From: an uncultured Lachnospiraceae bacterium
Lineage (GTDB): Bacteria > Bacillota > Clostridia > Lachnospirales > Lachnospiraceae
Length of the DNA stretch: 64,000 bases
Direction of reading: 5' to 3'
NCBI GenBank assembly: GCA_947631625.1
Contig: CANRMA010000001.1
Location: 175,942 to 239,941 of the forward strand
Shown: positions 20,098-56,107 of the stretch, piece by piece
Layout of the letters: every line of letters begins with the position of its first letter
Position numbering within the stretch: position 1 is the first letter of the stretch
Notes under the pieces: generated by a model
The model's input: the letters and a program-made list of their open reading frames with translations, nothing else
Told to the model about the DNA's origin: nothing
The model's database searches: none
Program-made: the position numbers and the translations under genes

Positions 20098-20100
20098 CGC

Positions 20101-20217
20101 GCTTAGTGCCGCTACTGCGCTCAACGCAGCGAAAGCGGCTTGCAAGGGTTTTGTTAAATCTGCACAATTTCAAAAACATAAATCAGAGTTTCGCAATCGC
20201 TAAAAAAATATTATAGT
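20101..20217 (-). repeat. Dispersed intergenic repeat, copy 1 (inside the VTC operon)
   Basis: Read on the minus strand this segment (ATTGCGAAACTCTGATTTATG..., ...GATTTAACAAAACCC, CGCTTTCGCTGCGTTGAGC) aligns over about 115 bases with 53314-53430. It begins four bases after the VTC stop and ends near the ribosome site of the DUF4956 gene. Confidence 0.85.
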
Positions 20218-52388: not shown

Positions 52389-53285
52389 TTATGCTTTAGA
52401 CAACAGATCCGTAATTCTGTCCAAATCATCATGAGTATAAAACTCTATTTCTATTTTACCGGCGCCGTTACCTTTAGAATCAATAGATACCTTAGTACCA
52501 AGCGCGCGCTTCAATTTTTCCGCTACATCCTGATAGATAACATTCAGACCTTCATCGCCGACAGGCGCTTTTTTAGTTTTCTCAGGCTTATTCAGATTTT
52601 TAACTAATTTCTCGACTTCACGTACACTCAGCTTGTCATTGTAAATCTTCTGCGCGACTTCATACTGCTGCTCCGGATCTTCTATAGAAATAAGAGCCCT
52701 GGCATGTCCCGTGGAAATTTTATCTTCCACGATCATCTGCTGAACCTCATCACATAATTTCAATAGACGCATGGAATTAGTCACGGCAGTTCTGCTTTTT
52801 GAAACTTTCTCCGCCACTTCTTCCTGTTTTAAATTAAATTCTTCCAAAAGTTTCTTGTAAGCCAGAGCTTCTTCAATGGGATTCAGGTCTTCTCTCTGAA
52901 TATTTTCAATCAAAGAAATTTCAACGATTTCCTGTTCGGTATATTTGCGTATTATAACCGGAACTTCTTTTAAACCGGCAAGTTTTGCTGCGCGCCAACG
53001 ACGCTCCCCGGCAATGATTTCATAATAGGTTTCCCTATCCTGTACAAGAATGGGCTGCAGCAATCCGAACTGTTTAATTGAATCAGCCAGTTCCTGCAGA
53101 GCCTCTTCATCAAAATTTTTTCTCGGCTGTTCGCGGTTTGGTTCTATTTTTGTAATTTTAACTATAGTTTCCTGATCTTTTTCCGCTGAACTTTCAGCAG
53201 AATTATCATTGGTTTTACTATCACCGGTTTCATTCGGAGGAATAAGTGCATTTAAACCTTTTCCCAATCCTCTTTTTGGTGCCAT
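52389..53285 (-). CDS. parB: Chromosome partitioning protein ParB (Spo0J)
   Basis: 298 residues. GLGKGLNALIPP at the start, the CTPase/arginine patch GERRWRAAKLAGLKEVPVI, then the helix-turn-helix NLKQEEVAEKVSKSRTAVTN (about 140-165) that binds parS, and a C-terminal dimer domain. It spreads along DNA around the parS sites at 54762 and 54812 and loads SMC. Separated from parA by 389 bases that hold a palindromic repeat, whereas the two genes usually abut. Confidence 0.96.
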   Translation of the reverse strand: MAPKRGLGKGLNALIPPNETGDSKTNDNSAESSAEKDQETIVKITKIEPNREQPRKNFDEEALQELADSIKQFGLLQPILVQDRETYYEIIAGERRWRAAKLAGLKEVPVIIRKYTEQEIVEISLIENIQREDLNPIEEALAYKKLLEEFNLKQEEVAEKVSKSRTAVTNSMRLLKLCDEVQQMIVEDKISTGHARALISIEDPEQQYEVAQKIYNDKLSVREVEKLVKNLNKPEKTKKAPVGDEGLNVIYQDVAEKLKRALGTKVSIDSKGNGAGKIEIEFYTHDDLDRITDLLSKA

Positions 53286-53313
53286 AAATTTAACATCCTT
53301 TCATATAATAATT

Positions 53314-53540
53314 TATTATAGATAATTGCGAAACTATGATTTACGTTATCGGGATTGTACAAATTTAACAAAACCTTGCAGGCACGCTTTCGCTGCATTG
53401 AGCCTTACAGCGGTACTAAGGCTGCAAAATACGCAGCCTAAGGACCGGTAGGCTCAGAGCGCCTGCATGGTGTTTGTTAAATCTGTACAATCAATATATG
53501 TTTAAAGAAAGTTTCACAATTGTCTAAATAATTTATAATA
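53314..53540. repeat. Dispersed intergenic repeat, copy 2: 227-bp imperfect palindrome between parA and parB
   Basis: Left arm from TATTATAGATAATTGCGAAA to GCTTTCGCTGCATTGAGCC (53314-53403), apex hairpin AGGCTGC/GCAGCCT (53419-53439), right arm from GCCTGCATGGTGTTTGTTAA to CAATTGTCTAAATAATTTAT and ending at 53540. The right arm is an inverted, diverged copy of the left. Just downstream GCGATTGCGAAAC recurs at 53542. The rest of 53286-53674 has no gene. Confidence 0.85.
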
Positions 53541-53674
53541 GGCGATTGCGAAACGTCTCCACAATGTACATTAATTGTACAGAAACAATTGAAACGCCGA
53601 TGGCAATTAAGTAAAAAATAGGCAAAGCTTTATACTAATCCCATAATTTTGAAAAAGGACTAAAATTATAGGTG

Positions 53675-54445
53675 TTATTTATAATTTTTATTATTTATTA
53701 CCTCATCGGCAAGCAGCATATATGCTTCCGCTCCGGCTGACTTTGGATCATATATATTGATCGGCATACCGTAACTTGGAGCTTCGGCCAATCTTATATT
53801 TCTTGGTATTAATGTACTGTATACGTTTTGCTTTAAATGGCTTTTTACGTTTTCAACTACCTGCATGGATAGATTTGTCCTGGAATCGTACATTGTAAAA
53901 ACTACGCCTTCCATATCCAGATTCGGGTTTAATCTTTCCTTTACAAGATTTACAGTATGGATCAGTTGACTTAAACCTTCAAGAGCATAATATTCACACT
54001 GAATTGGCACAAGCACCGTATCAGCCGTCGTCATAGAATTGATAGTAAGCATACTCAGTGAAGGAGGACAGTCAATTATTATAAAATCATATCTGTCTTT
54101 TACCCAGTCCACTTCATTCTTTAATATGTATTCTTTCTTATCAACTCCTATAAGTTCGATCTCCGCAGCTGCAAGATTTACATTTGAAGGTATGATCGAT
54201 ACTTCGGGTATAACATTTTTTAAAATACATTCTTCTATGGAACATTCTCCAAGTATTAATTCATAAATTGTATTATCCAGATCATTTTTTTCAACTCCAA
54301 AACCGCTTGTTGTATTTCCCTGCGGATCGGTATCTATAACCAGAACCTGTTTACCTTTTGCTGCAAGAGAGGCAGCAAGATTAATGGATGTCGTAGTTTT
54401 ACCGACCCCACCCTTCTGATTTGCTATCGCAATAGTTCTTCCCAT
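53675..54445 (-). CDS. parA: Chromosome partitioning ATPase ParA (Soj)
   Basis: 256 residues, a deviant Walker A ATPase: NQKGGVGKTTTSINLAASLA with the signature lysine, VIDTDPQGNTTSGFG and DFIIIDCPPSLSMLTINSM. It drives origin segregation with ParB and, in Bacillus, regulates DnaA. GGAG precedes the ATG. Upstream is the parS region. Confidence 0.97.
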   Translation of the reverse strand: MGRTIAIANQKGGVGKTTTSINLAASLAAKGKQVLVIDTDPQGNTTSGFGVEKNDLDNTIYELILGECSIEECILKNVIPEVSIIPSNVNLAAAEIELIGVDKKEYILKNEVDWVKDRYDFIIIDCPPSLSMLTINSMTTADTVLVPIQCEYYALEGLSQLIHTVNLVKERLNPNLDMEGVVFTMYDSRTNLSMQVVENVKSHLKQNVYSTLIPRNIRLAEAPSYGMPINIYDPKSAGAEAYMLLADEVINNKNYK

Positions 54446-54761: not shown

Positions 54762-54777
54762 TGTTTCACGTGAAACA
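54762..54777. promoter_or_regulatory. parS site (perfect)
   Basis: TGTTTCACGTGAAACA, the exact Bacillus-type ParB binding sequence, 317 bases upstream of parA. Confidence 0.97.
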
Positions 54778-54811: not shown

Positions 54812-54827
54812 TGTTTCACGTGAAACA
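54812..54827. promoter_or_regulatory. parS site (perfect), second copy
   Basis: TGTTTCACGTGAAACA again, 50 bases (centre to centre) from the first site. Confidence 0.97.
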
Positions 54828-54829
54828 TG

Positions 54830-54895
54830 ATATTATTAGATAATTGTAAAACTATGTATCAACATATATAAATTATTTGAATTTAACAAATTTCA
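54830..54895 (+). repeat. Dispersed intergenic repeat, copy 3 (degenerate, beside parS)
   Basis: ATTAGATAATTGTAAAACTATG ... TTTGAATTTAACAAATTTC aligns with the left arm of copy 2 (ATTATAGATAATTGCGAAAC ... TACAAATTTAACAAAACC) over about 65 bases. A shorter candidate copy lies at 55862-55915. Confidence 0.6.
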
Positions 54896-55023: not shown

Positions 55024-55833
55024 TCAAATATATACAAGATGATTTTTTATTGCATATATAGCTGCCTGAGTTCTATCAGATACTTTTATTTTCTTAAAAA
55101 TACTGGAAATGTGATTTTTAACAGTTCGTTCACTTACGTTTAAAGCTATAGCAATTTCTTTATTTGACATTCCGTCTGCAATTTTTAATAATACTTCATT
55201 TTCACGTCTTGTTAAGTAATTTTTTTCTGACTTGATTGTCTTCTCTATATCCGGCTTAATCTTAGGCATTACATACAAAAATTTATCGTTAAGATCAACA
55301 CCAATACAATTTTTACTATTAATATTATTACTATTATCAGTATTATTAATGCTATTTATATTATTAAAACCATTAATATTATTGATACTATTAATATCAT
55401 TAAAACCATTAATATTATTAATACCATTATACTTATTAATATTATTAATATTATTAATATCATTAATAAGTATAAAAATTACTTCAAGCAATTCCGAAAT
55501 ATCACAGTTTTTCGACACAATACTATCAACAGAAGAGGATATCACATTAAAAGAAGGTTGAATTAAATTGTTATCTGATAATAGCAAGATTTTTATATTC
55601 GGATATTTATTCTTTATATTATCCAAGTCTTCAACAATTTTTTTTCCTCTAAATACATCAATATCCATAATTAATATATGGGGTGTTACTATTTTTAATT
55701 TTTCCAGACATTCATTAATATCAGCTGCTTCACTTATAATTTTTACATTTTCATTATACTCCAATAATACCTTAATTCCCTGACGCAGTAATACAAAATC
55801 TGATACAAGCGTGACTTTAATATAATCAAACAT
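55024..55833 (-). CDS. LuxR/NarL-type response regulator with Asn-rich linker
   Basis: 269 residues from ATG at 55833; GTG four codons earlier is also possible and neither has a good site. A receiver-like domain (about 1-122) has IMDIDVF with a likely phosphoacceptor Asp and a Lys at SKN, but only one of the two acidic N-terminal residues (VTLVSDF), so phosphorylation is doubtful. Residues about 124-174 are a low-complexity linker of 12-residue units like INNINGFNDINS. The GerE helix-turn-helix (about 205-265) reads LTRRENEVLLKIADGMSNKE and ALNVSERTVKNHISSIFKKI. No partner kinase is adjacent. AT-rich islet next to the origin. Confidence 0.85.
   Translation of the reverse strand: MFDYIKVTLVSDFVLLRQGIKVLLEYNENVKIISEAADINECLEKLKIVTPHILIMDIDVFRGKKIVEDLDNIKNKYPNIKILLLSDNNLIQPSFNVISSSVDSIVSKNCDISELLEVIFILINDINNINNINKYNGINNINGFNDINSINNINGFNNINSINNTDNSNNINSKNCIGVDLNDKFLYVMPKIKPDIEKTIKSEKNYLTRRENEVLLKIADGMSNKEIAIALNVSERTVKNHISSIFKKIKVSDRTQAAIYAIKNHLVYI
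55312..55464 (-). repeat. Low-complexity Asn/Ile array coding the LuxR linker
   Basis: Tandem ATTATTAATAC-type repeats with a 36-bp higher-order unit (12 residues), two clear copies INNINGFNDINS and INNINGFNNINS plus degenerate ones. Confidence 0.85.
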
Positions 55834-56107
55834 TTTTATTCTCACTATTATTATTTAATCAAAGCAATTGCAAAACGCTATCTAAAACTTCCGAATTTAG
55901 CAATTACCTGCAAGTTTTAAATTAATCTTCTATTTGTAATCATTTCCATTATAAAGTATAATAAACATAATAATAAAAAATATAATAACGACAGGTTTTA
56001 AATATACAAAATAATATATAAATTAATATATAAAATAATATATAAAATAATTCAAATTAAAGTTAAATAGTTGCAGATGAAATGTCAATCATTTACCAAA
56101 ACCATTA

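Follow-up and report, generated by a model that had tools for sequence, protein, structure and literature searches.

The parA and parB genes of this uncultured Lachnospiraceae bacterium are separated by a 208-bp palindromic MITE, which belongs to a multi-copy family here called M. The analysis started from a stretch of 64,000 nucleotides (the window) and was extended to the whole genome and to related genomes. A joint reading of the results, to which a probability of about 0.85 is assigned, is that the element is a non-autonomous MITE with an IS1182-like helper, whose interior hairpin is capped by a structured core of a wider family.

The element between parA and parB

The inverted ends of the 208-bp element read TAGAYAATTGYGAAAC and are bordered by a target duplication of 12 bp (Table 1). 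The segment 53304-53540 aligns as a whole with its own reverse complement (E 1e-21); inside the palindrome an inverted-repeat search identified a 54-nt imperfect inverted repeat, and folding of the element gave z values of -14.0 as RNA and -10.3 as DNA. The first-pass annotation had described a 227-bp palindrome at 53314-53540; its palindromic nature stands, but the limits have to be corrected, part of the target duplication having been included on either side. Its description as non-coding also holds, no listed ORF of the window running across the element.

In the direction of transcription the order is parA, a fragment of the same family, the 208-bp element and parB, and the parB ribosome-binding region lies just past the left target duplication AATAATTTATTA. 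The distance from the parA stop to the parB start is 389 bp here versus 10-27 bp in eight congeners, where the gap is unoccupied; the earlier suggestion that an insertion splits a normally tight gene pair is thus borne out, and empty sites do exist in relatives. In the ninth congener, G011, the gap holds another insertion, a gene of about 800 bp (L329 1658-2480) that, at a guess from its sequence, may encode a nucleotidyltransferase.

Other features were noted in the same region. Two perfect parS-type sites, TGTTTCACGTGAAACA, are found upstream of parA at 54762-54777 and 54812-54827, near a decayed MITE copy; further along, a low-complexity run of ATTATTAATATTATT-like repeats (55300-55480) lies within an ORF on the minus strand (55024-55845) whose product looks like a LuxR-type regulator.

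Table 1. Features of the parA-parB region and copies of the M and S families (window position = contig C1 coordinate minus 175941; C2 to C10 are other contigs of the same genome, G000)
Feature	Position	Strand	Basis or remark
Palindromic MITE, M family, 208 bp	53319..53526	.	self reverse-complement alignment, terminal repeats, target duplication
Left terminal inverted repeat TAGATAATTGCGAAAC	53319..53334	+	
Right terminal inverted repeat TAGACAATTGTGAAAC (as the minus strand reads)	53511..53526	-	
Left target-site duplication AATAATTTATTA	53307..53318	.	1 mismatch vs right copy
Right target-site duplication AATAATTTATAA	53527..53538	.	
Conserved structured core (model R1), palindrome tip	53374..53480	-	G000:C1:229315-229421, 96.8 bits, E 4.9e-22
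parB	52389..53285	-	ORF; congener neighbours of parA 75-84% identical
parA	53675..54445	-	ORF; proteins in nine congeners 86-91% identical
Second, older M-family fragment, one end only	53539..53583	+	83% over 46 bases vs M2 copy, E 5.7e-6
M-family half copy, VTC-DUF4956 intergenic region	20098..20203	-	86% over 104 bases vs M2 copy, E 1e-27
Decayed M copy upstream of parA	54832..54890	+	77% over 60 bases, E 2e-6
Short deletion derivative of sister palindromic family S	55862..55909	-	92.5% over 40 bases vs S copy, E 1.4e-11
S copies, own genome	C2:94506-94649; C3:108585-108724; C3:157978-158121		
S copies, own genome, further	C7:94077-94214; C10:17477-17620; C10:33621-33760		

Copies in the window and in the genome

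Three other stretches of the window had been matched to the palindrome on the first pass. The one at 20101-20217 (79% over 118 bases, E 5e-21) proved to be a copy with one half missing, and the weaker one at 54830-54895 a decayed M copy; the third, at 55862-55915, had to be reassigned to a sister family, S, which has the ends in common with M and differs in the interior. The older fragment next to the 208-bp element had escaped the earlier description; it directly abuts the right target duplication, indicating that two elements landed side by side.

In the stretches examined of the 2.67-Mb genome, clustering gave at least 69 copies or fragments of the M family and at least 14 of the S family; an element search of the genome found at least 41 near full-length copies among the best 40 of 123 candidate stretches, and full M copies measure about 197-228 bp. 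The 16-base end, allowing one mismatch at most, occurs 137 times in the genome versus 0 for the reversed pattern, and 58 copies have it at each of their two ends. Of these 58, 28 are flanked by target duplications of 9-14 bp (mode 11), compared with 0.4% of mismatched flank pairs, while 27 lack any duplication by the rule applied, being either old copies or copies with wrong boundaries. Two more empty orthologous sites were found in relatives for copies of the genome G021. These counts agree with the mobile family, and the further genomic copies, anticipated on the first pass. The M elements therefore combine terminal inverted repeats, target duplications, a short length without a transposase gene, a high number of copies and ends common with an autonomous element; they are MITEs, because their ends and 9-14-bp duplications match those of an IS1182-like IS. 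No match was obtained in the plasmid and phage collections searched.

S elements are palindromic MITEs of about 144 bp that have the IS1182-like ends of the M family but a different hairpin core (GGGGTGACTCTGCG..CGCAATGGAACCCC); in this genome the S copies often adjoin an M copy directly. Mini-elements of 46-52 bp, in which both ends are kept and the core is lost, are also present (C10:29654-29699 and C14:25706-25757), and are either minimal elements or deletion products.

The probable IS1182-like helper

In congeners, contigs end exactly at the same end sequence, which is the appearance of a multi-copy IS in short-read assemblies; one such contig contains nearly the entire IS, with a transposase of 485 residues. 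In public Lachnospiraceae genomes complete copies of about 1757 bp (1.76 kb) are found, with the same ends as the MITE; exact duplications of 9-13 bp, again with a mode of 11, flank 13 of 16 copies. The 485-residue transposase scores 45.8 for DUF772, above the Pfam cut-off of 23.1, and 19.6 for DDE_Tnp_1, slightly under the cut-off of 23; against the NCBIfam model for IS1182 (NF033551) it reaches 68 bits (E 7e-19), below the curated cut-off of 270 bits, and for this reason the naming is limited to "IS1182-like".

An intact transposase was not found in the 81%-complete assembly of this genome. A truncated IS is present on contig C20 (L303 1346-1800), where an end identical at 16 of 16 positions precedes a remnant of the transposase gene encoding its final 99 residues, at 72% identity. 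A transposase with matching termini, proposed on the first pass as a check, was thus identified in related genomes and, truncated, in this one. The interior of the MITE is unlike that of the IS and the likeness is confined to the 16-bp ends, so that the MITE is not a simple deletion of the 1757-bp element. Among 60 congeneric genomes the IS occurs in 18, the ends in 45 and the core in 58, and an IS1182-like end could not be recognised in some of the palindromes that bear the core.

On this strong circumstantial evidence from sequence, the M elements were very probably moved by an IS1182-like transposase. In the proposed mechanism, a DDE enzyme of this type would recognise the 16-bp ends TAGRYRATTGCGAAAC and insert the M element, duplicating about 11 bp of the target; the full-length source IS would have been lost, or would lie within the 19% missing from the assembly. 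The interior would form a long hairpin whose tip is the structured core of about 85 nt of the wider Lachnospiraceae family, with core and arms behaving as separate modules exchanged between elements. A transcript reading through parA-parB would carry the hairpin, since the element sits between two co-directional genes.

Fold and distribution of the core

Matches in other species are mostly limited to the middle of the palindrome. An alignment of 28 such cores, each of about 85 nt, gave 27 base pairs, 20 of which show changes on both sides, with 138 double-change cells versus 43.5 in shuffles. The corresponding values are 300 and 81.6 for 39 distinct cores taken from other Lachnospiraceae genera; this alignment was made by fitting to the model and is biased in its favour, but slid controls gave only 37-71. 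On one strand the core carries an invariant mini-hairpin, closed by the loops GAAA, GCAA, GAGA or similar GNRA sequences, which in the parA-parB copy reads AGCGAAAGCG. The fold of the core is conserved, and the conservation of both the pairing and the GNRA loop suggests that it works as a folded molecule, either RNA or single-stranded DNA. Rfam models detected only tRNAs in the window, with no match to the element; at permissive thresholds, six core-bearing loci returned plant miRNA models only, far under the cut-off and spurious.

This genome contains at least 66 core matches, and several congeners have 66 copies or more. In a sample of the order, the core was found in 22 of 246 genomes, every one from Lachnospiraceae and belonging to 11 genera; a sample of the phylum gave 4 of 349, again all Lachnospiraceae, and none of the 345 sampled Bacillota genomes outside this family contained it. 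Shorter hairpins at four loci (L036, L038, L048 and L051) resemble the core only in the GGCTGC..GCAGCC tip; such tip-sharing hairpins carry flanking arms of the GACATGAAGTTGT type and lie near gene ends in congeners.

Arms and core as modules

A set of 122 copies comprises 39 groups of arm sequences; within a copy the arms pair over a median of 26 bp at 87%, and in 117 of the 122 copies the own arms pair better than in every cross-group control. Cores 96-97.5% identical are found in one genome on unrelated, well-paired arms (L430, L431 and L449 in G293; L434 in G100). In the same two genomes inverted pairs of cores lie 80-500 bp apart, with arms differing between the members (L430-L433 and L434-L435), an arrangement reminiscent of REPINs. 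Slow compensated divergence would hardly replace 20-30 bp while the core changes by 4%, which implies that arms were either exchanged or newly formed. Since many arms recur in several copies, core and arms also travel as a unit. A derivation of the left arm of a copy on contig C14 from an inverted coding sequence, the 3' end of a gene, was rejected, as the gene stops earlier.

The two orthologous sites that lack the element show no arm left over without a core, a comparison limited by intergenic divergence, and no core-less hairpin was found among those sought with the beta arms, one of the arm types; both results favour the arrival of the arms together with the core at the two sites. The simplest reading is therefore an exchange of cores among palindromic elements, by recombination or template switching. 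It is tentatively proposed, at less than even odds, that the core is a module which can be exchanged or can move on its own, on which arms may be replaced wholesale and yet remain complementary, and which may turn transposon ends into palindromic MITEs.

Alternative explanations

An alternative in which the core itself is mobile, inserting at hairpin tips or creating inverted arms, with the IS1182-like MITE as merely one of its carriers, is regarded as doubtful. Near-identical cores on unrelated paired arms, the number of arm groups and the wider occurrence of the core than of the ends or the IS among congeners would all agree with it; against it weigh the two empty sites, within the limits of their divergence, the negative search for core-less beta hairpins, the joint movement of arms and core implied by copies that have the same arms, and the lack of any enzyme linked to the core. 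That the core is retained for a role as RNA in transcripts, for example in stabilising 3' ends, in attenuation or in processing, as with the Bacillus cereus bcr elements, is unlikely. Strong compensatory change and the invariant GNRA loop speak for such a role, as does the orientation of the GNRA strand between co-directional genes, antisense in 40 cases and sense in 12; this bias, based on crude gene calls and including some related loci, is taken as a lead only. However, because the GNRA strand is antisense in the favoured orientation, it is the complement that the transcribed strand carries, and palindrome correction during replication could likewise keep the arms paired. The parA-parB copy has the rarer orientation. 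Matches resembling promoters do not exceed the chance level, and three terminator-like matches were obtained versus a shuffle mean of 0.3, with poor tails, as expected within a long hairpin.

Two further accounts concern the family as a whole. A REP/BIME-type repeat mobilised by a Y1 transposase of the RAYT kind would fit the high copy number, the intergenic position, the palindromic structure and the inverted core pairs of G293 and G100, but is very improbable, target duplications and long terminal repeats being unexpected for HUH/Y1 transposition and the M element having a length of about 200 bp. Chance or AT-rich similarity without any mobility can practically be dismissed, as it is contradicted by the copy number, the target duplications and the empty sites, and chance is excluded by the count of the 16-base end against its reversed pattern.

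Significance and comparison with known systems

Palindromic MITEs are common and their origin is poorly explained; one conserved fold on 39 arm sequences makes the birth of palindromic elements testable in a culturable family. The fold is missing from the Rfam copy searched, with at least 66 copies per genome in gut bacteria, and it matters for intergenic annotation, RNA-seq and the interpretation of assembly breaks in Lachnospiraceae. A search of open-licence papers found no relevant work on MITEs in Lachnospiraceae or on IS1182-type MITEs. The type of MITE is already known, whereas a family-wide core with interchangeable palindromic arms looks new, being undescribed as far as the searches reach.

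With IS and MITEs of the IS1182 family the M elements and their putative helper have in common the 16-bp ends, the target duplication of about 11 bp and a transposase that contains DUF772 and matches DDE_Tnp_1 weakly; they differ in the low score of the transposase (68 bits versus the cut-off of 270) and in a MITE interior that is unrelated save for the ends. In the Bacillus cereus group, bcr1-bcr3 are MITE-like and bcr10 and bcr18 have conserved secondary structure (PMC3446304). The bcr1-bcr18 repeats resemble the family described here in being intergenic, multi-copy, structured and MITE-like; the text of that work does not mention a core being exchanged between arms of unrelated sequence, the comparison being made by description and not by sequence. 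REP, BIME and REPIN sequences are likewise palindromic, extragenic, of high copy number and sometimes arranged as inverted pairs. However, REPs measure 20-40 bp (PMC3733652), and the hallmark of the REP/RAYT system is a hairpin of this size tagged by GTAG or CGTC with no target duplication, whereas M elements are about 200 bp long and possess both terminal repeats and target duplications.
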